Below are positions 18,006-55,713 of a stretch of DNA of 64,000 nt, one piece after another. The position numbers and the translations under genes were made by a program. Source of the DNA: Cycloclasticus sp. (lineage in GTDB: Bacteria > Pseudomonadota > Gammaproteobacteria > Methylococcales > Cycloclasticaceae); NCBI GenBank assembly GCA_040743155.1, contig JBFLJU010000001.1:930001-994000 (forward strand), read 5' to 3'. Positions within the stretch are counted from its first letter, which is position 1; each line of letters starts with the position of its first letter. Below the pieces are notes generated by a model. It saw only the letters and a list, made by a program, of their open reading frames with translations. It had not been told where the DNA came from and did not search any database.

Positions 18006-19363
18006 TGACGCTCGTTATTTCAATAGTTTCTTTTCTCTTAGTGCTCGGTATTCTTGTCACCGTGCATGAATTTGGCCATTTTTGGGTAGCTAGAAAGTGT
18101 GGTGTCAAAGTTCTACGCTTTTCAATTGGCTTTGGTAAACCGTTATTCAGCTTTCGAAGAAAAGATGACCCAACAGAATATGTCATTGCTGGTATTCCGC
18201 TAGGTGGTTACGTAAAAATGCTAGATGAAAGCGAGGGGACCGTTGAGGAAAACGAGAAGGGTCTGGCGTTTAATAATAAGCCTCTTTTTAGTAAATTTCT
18301 CATCGTTCTAGCAGGCCCAGTTTTTAACCTTGTTTTTGCCTTCTTGATATTTTGGGTCATTCTTACAGTCGGCGAAGAAGGCTTAAAACCTGTTGTCGGA
18401 AAACTCGATACCACTGGGGTTGCAATCCATTCGGGCTTAGAAGTTGGTGATGAAATTGTAGCTGTTAATGACCGCCCAGTAGCCATTTGGAGAGTAGCTG
18501 TTGGCTTGATGGCCAGTGAAATGTTAGACAGTGGGTCTGTCGATCTCACCGTTGCTAGAGCGGGAGGGCAGCGCAAAAATGTACAACTCAGCTTTGATCA
18601 AGAAGATCTGCCTGAACCCAGTGATGTGGTTACACGAATTGGCATTGCACCGCTCCTGCCTACCTTAAAACCCATCGTAGGCGAGGTGATTCGTGGTGAA
18701 CGCGGCGACATAGCAGGCTTGCAGCGAGGGGATTTGATTCTATCGGCTAATAACCAAGTTATTGAGGATTGGCGTGCTTGGGTTGAGTTAACACGTTCAA
18801 GCGCAAACGTTAGCATGTTCATTGTCGTGTTAAGAAATAATCAAAAAATTGAGTTAACGGTAACCCCCAAAGAAATAATAGAAAATGATGTTTCTATTGG
18901 CAGAATTGGCATATCACCGTTAATAGACAAGGACCTATCGAAAAACTTTTATGCAGTATATTCCTTAAGTGGTTTTGCCGCGGTGACAGAGGCGGCAACT
19001 CAAACGGTGAGCTATTCATTGTTGACAGTTAAATTAATTGGAAGAATGCTGATAGGTGAAGCATCTGTTCAAAACTTAAGTGGCCCCATTAGTTTGGCTC
19101 AATATGCGGGCAAAACAGCAAGCATTGGTTTAATACCCTTTTTAAAATTTTTGGCTTTTGTCAGTGTGAGTTTAGGTGTAATGAATCTACTTCCCATTCC
19201 TATGCTTGATGGCGGACATTTATTTTTCTATTTAATCGAAGCGGTCAAAGGCAAACCAGTTTCAGAGAGGGCTCAAGGGCTATTTATGCGGGTTGGAATG
19301 TTTATCCTGTTATGCGTGATGGTGCTAGCTGTTTTTATTGATATCGACCGGATAATTGGCTAA
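18005..19363 (+). CDS. rseP: Site-2 intramembrane zinc protease RseP
   Basis: 452 aa, GTG start. The metalloprotease motif VHEFGHFWVARKCG is in the first membrane segment, two PDZ domains lie at about 115-300, and the second metal-ligand motif is PIPMLDGGHLFFYLIEA. RseP cleaves the anti-sigma factor RseA in the sigma-E envelope stress pathway and clears signal peptides. It precedes bamA, whose product's folding load that pathway monitors. Confidence 0.95.
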   Translation: MTLVISIVSFLLVLGILVTVHEFGHFWVARKCGVKVLRFSIGFGKPLFSFRRKDDPTEYVIAGIPLGGYVKMLDESEGTVEENEKGLAFNNKPLFSKFLIVLAGPVFNLVFAFLIFWVILTVGEEGLKPVVGKLDTTGVAIHSGLEVGDEIVAVNDRPVAIWRVAVGLMASEMLDSGSVDLTVARAGGQRKNVQLSFDQEDLPEPSDVVTRIGIAPLLPTLKPIVGEVIRGERGDIAGLQRGDLILSANNQVIEDWRAWVELTRSSANVSMFIVVLRNNQKIELTVTPKEIIENDVSIGRIGISPLIDKDLSKNFYAVYSLSGFAAVTEAATQTVSYSLLTVKLIGRMLIGEASVQNLSGPISLAQYAGKTASIGLIPFLKFLAFVSVSLGVMNLLPIPMLDGGHLFFYLIEAVKGKPVSERAQGLFMRVGMFILLCVMVLAVFIDIDRIIG

Positions 19364-50467: not shown

Positions 50468-51244
50468 GGGTCAGAGTAAAATAAATCTTGTTATGATTAA
50501 GCTCCCCCGAAATAATAATTGATTATAAGAAATGGCAAGATTAACTAGAGTCAATCCAGTTGGCGTTCCTCAACATATTGTTCAAAGAGGCAATAACCGT
50601 CAAATATGCTTCGGTGGTGAGGAAGATATGAAGGCTTATTTGAATTGGTTGGAAGAGTATTCAATAAAGCATGGTGTTGAGATTCATGCGTGGGTTTTAA
50701 TGACAAACTATGTTCATCTGCTTTGTACACCGCTGTCAGAAGAAGCCATTAGTAAGATGATGCAATCTATTGGTCGTATGTATGTCCGATATTACAATTA
50801 TACCTACCAGCGAAGCGGTACACTGTGGGAAGGTCGATTCAAAGCCAGCTTAATTGATAGTGAGCGTTATTTGCTTGAATTGCATCGTTACATCGAATTA
50901 AATCCAGTAAGAGCAGGCATGGTTGAAGAACCGAGCGAATATAGTTGGTCAAGTTATGGCTGCAATGGGCTAGGCATGGAAAGTAAATTACAAACCCCAC
51001 ATAAACTTTACCTTGCTTTAGGTAAGACAAAGCAAGAGCAGTTATCAAGTTATAGGGAACTATTTAAAGTACATGTTGGAGTGGAGTTATTGACAGAAAT
51101 AAGAGATAGTTTAAACAAAGGGCTGGCTTTAGGTAGTGAGCGATTTACCACCCAAATTGAGGCATTAACCAATAGGCGAATTACGCCAAGAAAAGCGGGA
51201 AGACCTAAGATAGTTGACAATGAAGGTTAATTTTACTCTGACCC
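50468..51244 (+). mobile_element. RAYT-type (IS200/IS605-related) element bounded by 15-bp inverted repeats
   Basis: GGGTCAGAGTAAAAT (50468-50482) and ATTTTACTCTGACCC (51230-51244) are perfect inverted repeats enclosing one Y1 transposase gene. Two further left-side partial copies occur, GGGTCAGAGTAA (50429-50440) and GGGTCTAA (50453-50460). This short motif on both sides is typical of REP-associated transposase loci. No target duplication is evident, as expected for this class. Confidence 0.7.
50532..51230 (+). CDS. REP-associated tyrosine transposase (Y1_Tnp), HUH motif altered
   Basis: 232 aa. The N-terminus RVNPVGVPQHIVQRGNNRQICF and the C-terminal RYIELNPVRAGMV (Tyr120, presumed catalytic) are RAYT signatures. 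The HUH motif, normally NHVHLL after HAWVLMT, reads N59-Y60-V61-H62: the first metal-binding His is Tyr (codon TAT, one step from CAT). The enzyme may therefore be inactive although its frame is intact. The tail ITPRKAGRPK is common in the family. Its stop lies in the right inverted repeat. Confidence 0.88.
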   Translation: MARLTRVNPVGVPQHIVQRGNNRQICFGGEEDMKAYLNWLEEYSIKHGVEIHAWVLMTNYVHLLCTPLSEEAISKMMQSIGRMYVRYYNYTYQRSGTLWEGRFKASLIDSERYLLELHRYIELNPVRAGMVEEPSEYSWSSYGCNGLGMESKLQTPHKLYLALGKTKQEQLSSYRELFKVHVGVELLTEIRDSLNKGLALGSERFTTQIEALTNRRITPRKAGRPKIVDNEG

Positions 51245-51829: not shown

Positions 51830-52086
51830 TTAGGTTCCGCGTTGCTATAGAGATGTTGCCTTTTAGTATTTCGCTGCCGCGAGGGCGTTCATTTCTTTTG
51901 CGTGCCCAAAAGAAACAGAACCAAAGAAAAGGGCACCCTATCGCAAGAACCTCTCTTTTATCGGGCGTGCGCGAACTCGCTACGCTCAAACAACGCACAC
52001 ACTATTCCGAAAAAAGAGAGAACCTTAAGCACGAGAAAGGGATTATTGGGGCATCTGGCCAATCAATGGGTACCGGCCCCTTAAAC
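51830..52086 (+). repeat. Island repeat, copy B (direct to A, inverted to C)
   Basis: A 257-bp uninterrupted copy beginning TTAGGTTCCGCG and ending GGTACCGGCCCCTTAAAC. Short frames inside it read like FLLRAQKKQNQRKGHP; such peptides are often called as hypothetical proteins but here come from a non-coding repeat. It ends 30 bp from the ATPase gene stop. Confidence 0.75.
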
Positions 52087-52115
52087 GTCCCCTTAAACCG
52101 TGTAAACCGAGAAAT

Positions 52116-53525
52116 TTATGAATAAGATTTTTGCATCGAATTAAAGGCACTATTGAGTACTTTTAGAAGCTCTGCTTGGGACATCTTTTGCCTGTAAGAG
52201 CTGTGTTCAAAGAGACTTCTTGCAAAAACCATTAGAAACGGTGTCGTATACCTATATAGATGAGACGATGCATCATAGGTAACTATCCCCCCACCTTCAT
52301 CTGCCATCAACTCTCTCAAAGTAAGTTCCAAGGTGGATTCGTCATTGTCGAAGCCCATGCCATTTAGAATATCAATGATTTCTTGTATACATTCACCTTC
52401 CTCACCACCTTCTGACAAAGCTTCAAGCACTAGTGGAGCGGATATAACTCTAAAAGCTGAATCAAATGAACTTTTAATAGTGTCTGAAGCATCATCGAGA
52501 TATTCACTAACAGCAAAAGTTAAGTCATTAAATCCCACCGACGCATTTTTTGAGTAACACTTGTTTTCTATTTCATTAGCAACTTGGCTTAAATTTACGT
52601 CTAACACGGATTTTGTTTCAGTACGCTCATCTTCAATTTCTCTTGGATCTTGAATGATTATATTTTTATCTCTGGTTGCCGAGACAGTTTGATATAGAGC
52701 GATTGACTCACACATAAGAGAACACAACTTATGGCAAATAGCGGCTAAACCATTTGTATAGTGATATATATCGGAAAACAAAGATGGATCACTGACCTTT
52801 ACATTAAGTAGTGAAAATCCATTTTCTACGATTTTCTTAATTTCAATGTTACTCATCAAAGGAACTTTTATTTCAGAGACTCTATTTCTCATTTCTACAT
52901 CGTACTGGACTACCTGCCTTGCAGAATTAACAGCACCAACACATATAATTTTCAAGTCAGGATAATCGTTTGACATATCCATAAAAACCTTCATAAGTTG
53001 AGATAGCTTACTCTTGTCTCTTTCCTGAACTTTATGAAAATCATCCAATATCCAACAGTATCCTGCTCCTCCCATAAACCTTGCTAAACTCTGAGCCGTC
53101 AGCTGGGGTGGCAGTGCACGCTGGTGTTTTTCTTGACTTGAACTGCTAGAAGTCGCCTTTATTTGTGAATCTATTACTTTAAAGCTTGCCTTCAAGCTTA
53201 CATCTATGGAGTCGCTATCTGTTGAACTTTTTTCACTAAGGTAAAATGGAGAAAGCTGATCGAATGCATCAAGAATCACAGATTCAAAATTCATTCCCTT
53301 CATGCAGCTTGTCTTTATATGGCGCTCGTATACTTGATACAACTTATTTTCAAGTAAAGTTGTTTTGCCAGATCCAGACTGGCCATAAACAATGATCTGC
53401 ATCCCGGGGGTGTTTAATGCTCTAACAACTCTCCTATTTATGTCTTCTCTCTCTACAAAGTTTATTTTCGCCGGAGAAGCAGGAGTAAACACTTGAGAAA
53501 CTTTGTATATCTCTTTAGTCATCAT
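52116..53525 (-). CDS. AAA/STAND-like P-loop ATPase, uncharacterised
   Basis: 469 aa. Walker A GQSGSGKTT (48-56), Walker B WILDDFH (158-164), a sensor-like strand KIICVGAVNSA (192-202) and two Arg (213, 215, EMRNRVSEI) where arginine fingers are found. The arrangement fits Orc1/Cdc6- or STAND-type ATPases, with a helical/winged-helix C-terminal half ending near residue 469. A Ser run (125-130) forms a linker. AAAGGAAG precedes the first of two ATGs. It follows an attC-like site and the nuclease-like gene on the same strand, 116 bp apart, so it may couple ATP-dependent sensing to that nuclease. No named family is claimed. Confidence 0.75.
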   Translation of the reverse strand: MMTKEIYKVSQVFTPASPAKINFVEREDINRRVVRALNTPGMQIIVYGQSGSGKTTLLENKLYQVYERHIKTSCMKGMNFESVILDAFDQLSPFYLSEKSSTDSDSIDVSLKASFKVIDSQIKATSSSSSQEKHQRALPPQLTAQSLARFMGGAGYCWILDDFHKVQERDKSKLSQLMKVFMDMSNDYPDLKIICVGAVNSARQVVQYDVEMRNRVSEIKVPLMSNIEIKKIVENGFSLLNVKVSDPSLFSDIYHYTNGLAAICHKLCSLMCESIALYQTVSATRDKNIIIQDPREIEDERTETKSVLDVNLSQVANEIENKCYSKNASVGFNDLTFAVSEYLDDASDTIKSSFDSAFRVISAPLVLEALSEGGEEGECIQEIIDILNGMGFDNDESTLELTLRELMADEGGGIVTYDASSHLYRYTTPFLMVFARSLFEHSSYRQKMSQAELLKVLNSAFNSMQKSYS

Positions 53526-53538
53526 CTTCCTTTCGATT

Positions 53539-53636
53539 TATAACGCCCAATTAACAGGCAAAAAATAGTTGGTTAAAATAAGCGACGAAGGAGCAAAAAC
53601 CAACTATTTTTTGTCCTTGTTTAATTTCTTGTTATG
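53539..53636 (-). other. attC-like integron recombination site
   Basis: On the minus strand the site runs from ATAACAAG (R'' side, 53628-53635) to GGGCGTTATA (R' side, 53539-53548). Internal arms AAATTAAACAAGGAC and GCCTGTTAATTGGGC pair imperfectly with an unpaired spacer and an extra unpaired A. A perfect 16-bp stem CAAAAAATAGTTGGTT/AACCAACTATTTTTTG (53598-53613, 53559-53574) with a 23-base loop closes it. Outer boxes, bulged base, central spacer and about 98-bp size all match attC architecture; the ends resemble Vibrio repeats (TAACAA...GGGCGTTATA). It begins about 7 bp after the nuclease-like gene stop, as in gene cassettes. Confidence 0.72.
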
Positions 53637-53641
53637 TTATG

Positions 53642-55060
53642 TTATGTTTTGTTTGTGACAGCTTTCTTTGTAGCCTTTTCCTTTGGAACTTCGGGGAAGT
53701 TAACTCTTCCGATGCTGCTTAATATAGCTTTTCTACATTTTGTAGCGAACCTTAAATCTTTGTTATCTGAAAGGTACTTTGCCACCATAAACAAATCAGG
53801 TGTAAACACTAAAGCTGTAGAATTTGTCTTAGATGCGGTATGACATTTAGTAGTAAAAGGATCTTCCCTTTCACTTAGTTCTTGAAGCCTGTAAGCATTA
53901 CCAAATAAAACAGGCTTAGCGGGGGACTCAACTTCTTCTCTTTCTAGGTCTTCATGAATATTTAGTGCTAACTGCCTAAGCTTATCTATATTAAGTGGTT
54001 TATTATCCTTTCCTTCAGCTTCACCAATAAGGCGGCCTTCTTTAGACTCAAAGACAGCATCAAATTCAGATTCACCATTTTCAAACTGTGAAACAGAGAA
54101 GCCTAACTGTTTCAATGCGTCTAAAATTGAAAACTCTAAAGGTTTACCCTTTTCAAATAATAGGTTTCTTAATCTCCCACTATCTTCCAATTTGTTGATA
54201 ATAGATTCTTTCTTAAGTTGAATTTGCTCTAGCTCTGACTCGATCTTAAGTAATTCTGTATCTAATTTGTCTTCTGATTTAAGTTTGTAATCTGTTGATT
54301 TACACCATTCAGGTTCAGCAGTAACTTCACCTGTATTTTTAATAGCTTTATCTATAGTTACAATTGATTTGGTGAGTCTTGAAGCAAATTTCACCGACTC
54401 ATTTGTCCAATCCCCTTCTTCATCAAAAAAATCATCAGGGTAAAAATCTATATAAGGAAGGAGTATAAGAGCTCCGTTTGAGTTTTTAGACCTTAGAATA
54501 GAACCGACTGTTTTATCACCGTTCTTTGTAAGTAAACACGGAGGTACTTTATCTCCAATAGTTACTTTATAACTAGATTCACCCGAAAACTCTTTCCAAT
54601 ATGATGCAATTAATTCTGAGTTTTTTGGAGCAAGTTTTATTTCTTGCCCTTGAGTTTTAACAACATTTAATTCGGCAGGAATTATTTTATAATTATCATA
54701 AGATCCAACATGCCTTGTTGTTTGTCGATTTCTTCCTGTCCCTGAAAATGATTTATCGCCAGTAGCTATGAATACTTGTGTTAGTTTGGAAAGGAAAACA
54801 ACTACTGTTTTTCCACAGTCTACAGACTCAAGAATCTCTCTTCTCCAATGCTGAATCCTGTCTTTCAATTGAAAAGATATATGATCACTTAAAGATGGTT
54901 TGCCCTCAAACATATCATTGTGCGAAACAAACTCATCAATATCTGGTTTGAATAAAATGATGTCAAAATCTAATAATGAGGAATCGCTATTGAATTCGCA
55001 ATAATTGACATTATCGTTGTTTAATTTAAAGCCAACCGTAACAATATTTTTTTGTGCCAT
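53642..55060 (-). CDS. Uncharacterised protein with C-terminal PD-(D/E)XK-like nuclease domain
   Basis: 472 aa. An N-terminal alpha/beta domain (1-about 240) has LLDFDIILFKPDIDEF, SFQLKDRIQHWRREIL and VVVFLSK. A coiled coil follows (about 258-300), then a domain with LLFEKGKPLEFSILDALKQLGF and SEFDAVFESKEGRLIGEAEGK. Asp334, Glu349 and Lys351 fit the D-x(n)-E-x-K nuclease core, and Gln363 lies in the next helix. The C-terminus ends in a Lys-rich tail. GAGGG precedes the ATG. The attC-like site directly after the stop suggests an integron cassette. Function unknown; a DNA-cutting effector is inferred. Confidence 0.75.
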   Translation of the reverse strand: MAQKNIVTVGFKLNNDNVNYCEFNSDSSLLDFDIILFKPDIDEFVSHNDMFEGKPSLSDHISFQLKDRIQHWRREILESVDCGKTVVVFLSKLTQVFIATGDKSFSGTGRNRQTTRHVGSYDNYKIIPAELNVVKTQGQEIKLAPKNSELIASYWKEFSGESSYKVTIGDKVPPCLLTKNGDKTVGSILRSKNSNGALILLPYIDFYPDDFFDEEGDWTNESVKFASRLTKSIVTIDKAIKNTGEVTAEPEWCKSTDYKLKSEDKLDTELLKIESELEQIQLKKESIINKLEDSGRLRNLLFEKGKPLEFSILDALKQLGFSVSQFENGESEFDAVFESKEGRLIGEAEGKDNKPLNIDKLRQLALNIHEDLEREEVESPAKPVLFGNAYRLQELSEREDPFTTKCHTASKTNSTALVFTPDLFMVAKYLSDNKDLRFATKCRKAILSSIGRVNFPEVPKEKATKKAVTNKT

Positions 55061-55412
55061 TTATCGATATACCCTCGGAAAAACATAACAATGCATTAAC
55101 GGGAATTAATTTTCCCTGTAATGAGACAATGAAGCAAGAACAAGGTACTTTCATCTCTTTCTGCATAAAGCCAGAATTAAACAAAACGCTACCCTTTAAT
55201 CTATTACTGCTTGCTTAGATAATTGATGTTGGCGACAAGAAACGCCTGATAAGAAGAGTCCTTTTAAAACCACTTGATCTGTATCCATACAAATTACCGC
55301 TTTTATTCGCTGCGTAGTTTATAGCTAAAGTGCCCGATTGAATACTCATTATTGTCTAGCCATTGGGCCAGCAACACCTAAGGCGGCGCCTACTTGAATT
55401 AAATGAGACGCT
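55061..55412. other. Upstream region of the nuclease-like gene, no other gene seen
   Basis: About 350 bp, AT-rich. An imperfect inverted repeat CATTAACGGGAA/TTCCCTGTAATG (55094-55105, 55112-55123) lies 34 bp from the nuclease-gene start; it could be an operator or a decayed recombination site. No clear promoter pair was identified. Confidence 0.35.
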
Positions 55413-55631
55413 ACCCTTTGATTGAATACGAGCCCAAAAATTCCCTTTATCGCGCTTAAGAATATTTTTATATTCGGATGAGTGTGTACGTTGTCTGAGC
55501 GTAGCGAGTTCGGACACGCCCGAAAATAAAGGTATTCTTGCGGTAGGGTGTCCTTTTCTTTGGTTCTGTTTCTTTTGGACAAGCAAAAGAAATGAACGCC
55601 CTCGCGGCAGCGAAATACTATAAGGCTAATA
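55413..55631 (-). repeat. Island repeat, copy C (inverted)
   Basis: Reverse complement of the A/B repeat over about 220 bp: read on the minus strand it gives AGTATTTCGCTGCCGCGAGG, TTCATTTCTTTTGC, CCAAAAGAAACAGAACC, AAGAAAAGGACACCCTA, CTCGCTACGCTCAGACAACG and GCGCGATAAAGGGA. Boundaries are approximate because the end nearest the nuclease gene diverges. With copy B it brackets the two-gene module. Confidence 0.72.
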
Positions 55632-55713
55632 ATAATTAGCAAGCCAGAGAAAGGCAGGTCAGATCTGTCTTTTTAGCTTACGCATGTATTAAGATAACCC
55701 CGCCGCCGACATT

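Follow-up and report, generated by a model that had tools for sequence, protein, structure and literature searches.

Two gene cassettes at a diverged, integrase-less attI in Cycloclasticus sp.: probable use of dispersed attI copies by one integron integrase in trans

Integrons are described as one platform consisting of an integrase, a single adjoining attI site and a single array of gene cassettes, and integrase-less cassette clusters are usually taken for decayed integrons or off-target insertions. A cluster of attC sites lacking an integron integrase is termed CALIN, and IntegronFinder 2 reports CALINs by default only from two attC sites onwards (PMC9024848). Xanthomonas CALINs occupy conserved loci away from ilvD and are said to be mobilisable in trans (PMC12444791). 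In the 64-kb stretch of Cycloclasticus DNA analysed here (the window), a nuclease cassette and an ATPase cassette probably start at a diverged attI without an integrase of its own, one of several dispersed attIs that would be served in trans by the single complete IntI of the host.

The attC site and its relatives

The first-pass annotation had recognized a full attC plan on the minus strand at 53539-53636. The plan was confirmed, with the site extending from 53538 to 53637. On the minus strand R'' (53637-53631) reads ACATAAC and R' (53544-53538) GTTATAA, L'' (about 53626-53619) reads AATT(A)AAC with a bulged A and L' (53555-53549) GTTAATT. R'' pairs with R' and L'' with L', spacers separate the R and L boxes, and extrahelical bases stand at 53622, 53618 and 53614. 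The inner part comprises three bulged bases, GGAC, a perfect 15-bp stem (53612-53598 with 53574-53560) and a 23-nt loop. The putative bottom strand folded as single-stranded DNA with -17.7 kcal/mol, whereas dinucleotide shuffles averaged -7.7 (z -4.45), and both strands were far more stable than their shuffles.

A search of the window in Rfam yielded no matching family, thus an own attC covariance model, R1, was built from 35 attCs of other integrons, none of them from the window. It replaced a strict heuristic attC scan, which was dropped for its noise and for missing known attCs, and recovered 144 attCs in 20 array loci adjoining intI, many of them outside the training set. In an unfiltered search the site was the top match of R1 in the 64 kb, covered at full length with 24.1 bits (E 0.002); the runner-up reached 14.9 bits. 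A second clear attC was absent from the window in this search, as the first-pass annotation had stated. Infernal with default filters missed the site, hence a default or routine pipeline may skip it.

BLAST located relatives of the window attC in 20 plasmid or second-replicon records, mostly of Pseudoalteromonas, with up to 90.7 % identity. The ends had been likened to Vibrio integron repeats, and the site is indeed an attC of the Vibrio/Pseudoalteromonas type, with 88-91 % identity to attCs of Pseudoalteromonas and Aliivibrio. In Pseudoalteromonas sp. HL-AS1 a copy of 87.6 % identity comes after the first gene next to an annotated integron integrase. Wherever annotation exists, the homologues sit between differing, unrelated genes. 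A 91 % identical attC of Pseudoalteromonas sp. HL-AS2 (L133) lies directly 3' of an AbiV-family abortive infection gene; the stretch fetched there carries no integrase annotation. Among 16 homologous attCs, 17 pairs were altered on both sides (10.3 in shuffles) with 56 compensatory cells (18.5 in shuffles), and the signal was destroyed when the pairing partners were slid, so the structure has been kept by covariation. On these sequence features the hairpin is judged a genuine attC and not a terminator, and its recombination by IntI is predicted.

Two cassettes, their genes and their surroundings

The attC terminates a first gene cassette of 1545 bp on the minus strand (53544-55088), which starts with TTATGT next to the crossover G (55089), extends as far as the crossover G of its attC (53544) and carries a nuclease-like gene for 472 amino acids (53642-55060, minus strand). 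The attC had been thought to start just after the stop of this gene, which needs a small correction: the stop codon TAA (53644-53642) does not precede the site but lies inside the first copy of a threefold ATAAC repeat (53631-53647, minus strand) that consists of R'' as the last copy and two extra copies. Tandem R boxes were also observed as three copies of GACGTTAG after an attC of the host intI array (L009, about 18910-18925), and candidate causes at both places are slippage or repeated crossover. The cassette begins with G|TTATGT, the G at 55089, and this R' (GTTATGT) complements its own R'' (ACATAAC) perfectly. The present R', GTTATAA, pairs with R'' except for two mismatches and is part of the following unit, in keeping with cassette joining. 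DNA homology to the array cassette with a relative of the nuclease gene at L018 covered 53629-55089, from the crossover point to R'', and ended at the matching point of the preceding attC in that array. The unit is therefore discrete, starting after a crossover GTT and ending in its own attC.

Relatives of the nuclease were found 29 times, in many phyla. An attC adjoins the gene in six of them, from unrelated phyla: directly 3' of the stop in five (L018, L019, L028, L035, L039) and ending about 25 nt before the start in three (L018, L019, L020), with L018 representing a real multi-cassette array. The presence of this gene in integron arrays, which the first-pass annotation had proposed to check, was thus confirmed, and the nuclease-like gene is a recurrent integron cassette gene. 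Enterobacter plasmid relatives with an adjoining tyrosine recombinase and transposases were searched for attC sites, and none was found. D334 and the pattern E347-x-E349-G-K351, typical of PD-(D/E)xK nucleases, were invariant in 24 relatives, and the structure model was confident (pLDDT 87.5). The protein is likely a PD-(D/E)xK nuclease with an additional N-terminal domain. Searches in Pfam, NCBIfam and PADLOC assigned no family above cut-off, Foldseek against the PDB gave zero matches at E 0.001 or better, and weak C-terminal Foldseek matches to Hjc and EndoMS are at most consistent with a PD-(D/E)xK fold. Judged solely from the kind of cargo, a defence role of the cassette would be plausible.

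The second cassette (52116-53543, minus strand) has its 5' end TTATAA at 53543. Its gene (52116-53525, minus strand) codes for a P-loop ATPase of 469 amino acids of the ATPase_2/AAA_16 type, a weak PADLOC candidate (PDC-S59), and starts 12 nt after the R' of the attC. An attC of its own is missing, and repeated intergenic sequence lies downstream of the gene. The sole ATPase relative found in 369 genomes of the class is located directly downstream of a 42.8-bit attC. A two-gene defence operon of nuclease and ATPase was considered and rejected, for in none of the 29 relatives did the flanks fetched around the nuclease contain the ATPase. The relative behind an attC, together with this absence near the nuclease elsewhere, identifies the locus as two cassettes, the second of which no longer has an attC.

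On either side, the cassette locus is bordered by intergenic repeats that resemble each other and point in opposite directions (51850-52100 and 55450-55640), and the window contains a gene for a transposase of the REP-associated Y1 type (50532-51230). Synteny of the locus with genomes of the genus yielded nothing: the nuclease and ATPase genes are both absent from the other genomes, and the csp-to-speD neighbourhood differs in them.

attI heads in the host genome and across the genus

By sequence comparison, the first cassette has at its left junction a diverged attI whose register fits the crossover. Its core (55089-55123, minus strand) ends at the crossover G 55089, no attC is located upstream of this position, and most of the outer part of the site, which should reach to about 55183, is degraded. 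When 200 nt were aligned to attI with gaps, the comparison with shuffles was mixed, and the junction was then assessed by fixed-register and profile tests. Ungapped and in register with the crossover, 36 of 60 positions were identical to the host attI; among 7,189 GTT positions in sampled host sequence only attI itself surpassed the junction, the next best position scoring 30. A profile built from 24 attI copies detected the junction with E 1.9e-4, and with E 1.4e-4 when all copies of the host genome were left out, a weak but significant homology. Identity to an orphan attI of another genome (G005) was 84 % over 38 nt, and the recognisable attI is confined to about this length. Due to this degradation, uptake of cassettes at attI may have ceased in this array; its attC could still be excised. 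The window attI is adjoined by a 130-bp sequence (55251-55380) with an 83 % identical copy (L012:4144-4273) about 2.2 kb from an intI fragment. The cassette locus lies a few kb downstream of recJ, in the opposite orientation; an orphan attI of another genome (L113:2766-2864, G007) is also found downstream of recJ, at about 470 nt.

The 64-kb window contained no IntI match, in agreement with the first-pass annotation; intI does not stand beside the array, and the locus is a CALIN in the sense of an attC without neighbouring intI, with one attC present. The proposed search for intI elsewhere in the genome was successful. A complete IntI (C1:2462100-2463044, 427 bits) is encoded 1.48 Mb from the window locus in a complete integron of attI, intI and a small array (2458374-2463065). 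A scan of the genome with R1 revealed further attC clusters near 0.546, 1.131, 1.66, 1.80, 2.06 and 2.52 Mb, and the loci fetched around them were without IntI match, so that the host has seven integrase-less attC clusters, the window locus included. All eight cassette loci, the intI locus and the seven integrase-less ones, are headed by an attI-family sequence; three heads of the integrase-less clusters scored 75-86 bits and four were diverged (16-24 bits). Otherwise the profile gave in 273 kb of host sequence only weak opposite-strand echoes of these palindromic sites and a match at E 0.46-0.48, and in 702 kb of control sequence nothing significant (best E 0.77). The near-intact attIs at C1:2062115 (L135), 546622 (L139) and 2521876 (L136) are 82-91 % identical to the intI-linked attI and head integrase-less arrays, among whose cargo HigBA-like, GNAT, methyltransferase and SIR2-like genes were seen by eye. 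The attCs of the intI array and of three orphan arrays are close relatives with up to 97 % identity. The attCs of the host's own arrays were expected to resemble the window attC but are unlike it; sites of the Pseudoalteromonas type match instead. A C-terminal fragment of about 78 residues of a second integron integrase is present at C1:1166440-1166673 (L012/L105), closer to another IntI, of genome G017, than to the host's own.

Across the genus, an attI element of about 98 nt was found in 14 of 18 genomes, mostly without intI: only four copies adjoin intI, the presence of which was established in four genomes. Fetched flanks of the larger orphan attI loci (up to about 10 kb) contained neither a full-length nor a related IntI. 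The conserved block has a sharp start at about -94, at the place expected for the beginning of the intI start region, and on the other side it breaks off at the crossover. A ACTATGTTA-like motif precedes the conserved block by about 30-45 nt in about half of the orphan copies and was not seen upstream of the intI-linked copies; perhaps it is a promoter or part of a dispersed element. Matches to attC at the attI loci of the genus were without exception on the cassette side and in the same orientation (29 of 29). Several orphan attI positions are common to different species. At three such loci, in five comparisons, the homology, reaching up to 2.5 kb upstream, stopped +3 to +7 past the crossover, and the sequences differed from there on. 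In two pairs of degenerate copies the homology did not end at the crossover, and one pair was uninformative due to contig ends. One orphan attI is empty in L183 (G017) and filled in L197 (G013) by a two-gene cassette with attC, by eye a BrnT/BrnA-like toxin-antitoxin pair. The filled site also carries about 0.5 kb with one extra gene, thus the right end of this pair is not clean.

Origin of the integrase-less loci and comparison with known integrons

On balance we lean towards a distributed integron, in which the attI of about 98 nt is an independent element present at many loci, each with its own small array, and served in trans by one IntI. The integrase would recombine the folded bottom strand of an attC with attI, and cassettes would enter the dispersed attI copies by means of integrase supplied from the single complete locus. 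The use of orphan attIs in trans is indicated circumstantially by the differing cassettes at the same orphan attI and by the homology ending at the crossover. This turnover could, however, go back to a period in which a local intI still existed.

The main rival derives every integrase-less cluster, as a relic, from a complete integron, duplicated or acquired, whose intI was lost and whose attI remained as a leftover. In its favour, the common view takes CALINs for degraded integrons (PMC9024848), the attI of the window locus has itself decayed, an intI fragment persists elsewhere in the host genome (at 1166440) and orphan positions inherited between species must be old. These points make the loss of intI quite possible, if the more doubtful account. 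Relics of this kind sit poorly with flanks free of IntI matches, with the sharp 5' start of the conserved attI block, with a ACTATGTTA motif upstream of several orphan copies that intI-linked copies lack, and with differing cassettes at shared orphan sites. The notion of an array remnant, offered in the first-pass annotation, comes nearer to the observations than its alternative of a lone cassette at a secondary site, yet the host has seven attI-headed integrase-less clusters, and related species carry differing cassettes at the same orphan attIs.

The lone cassette would have been placed by IntI into a non-canonical genomic site, attG. Such insertions are within the abilities of IntI (Loot et al. 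2024, cited in PMC11023631; PMC12444791), and the host possesses the enzyme. We consider this origin very unlikely for the window locus, as 38 nt of the junction agree with attI in the register of the crossover, a second cassette begins after the nuclease attC, and attI-family sequences head all seven integrase-less clusters. A mere intrinsic terminator or chance hairpin after the nuclease gene has next to no chance and is refuted as sole explanation, since the covariation across homologous attCs, the complete set of R and L boxes, spacers and extrahelical bases, the homologous sites between unrelated genes and the nuclease gene in integron arrays elsewhere oppose it, although the AT-rich 15-bp stem with its T-runs might additionally terminate transcription.

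If the dispersed attIs are indeed used in trans, many integrase-less clusters would be working outposts of one integron and several chromosomal positions would be open to cassette placement at once. Standard software, which seeks intI and attC, would be blind to such an arrangement. We found no description of dispersed orphan attIs heading arrays in the open-access literature, an absence that is weak evidence.

The window locus shares with CALINs the attC cassettes without neighbouring intI, and even one attC on its own may represent a genuine CALIN (PMC9024848); it differs in that the host clusters are headed by attI-family sequences, several of them in one genome together with a single complete integron. 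The Xanthomonas CALINs are alike as integrase-less attC clusters at conserved chromosomal loci, but attI copies at those loci are not reported in the available part of PMC12444791. A delta-attI cassette of mobile integrons also places an attI, usable by the integrase, in an unusual position; there a cassette within an array ends in a truncated attI, whereas here near-complete attIs head separate chromosomal arrays (PMC12901181). The attC has its counterpart in the Pseudoalteromonas/Aliivibrio/Vibrio family, with the same loop, the same boxes and 88-91 % nucleotide identity, while the host's own arrays carry another attC type. A complete sedentary chromosomal integron, with attI, divergent intI and a small array, is represented in the same genome by the locus at 2458374-2463065, from which the window locus differs by the lack of intI and by its degraded attI.
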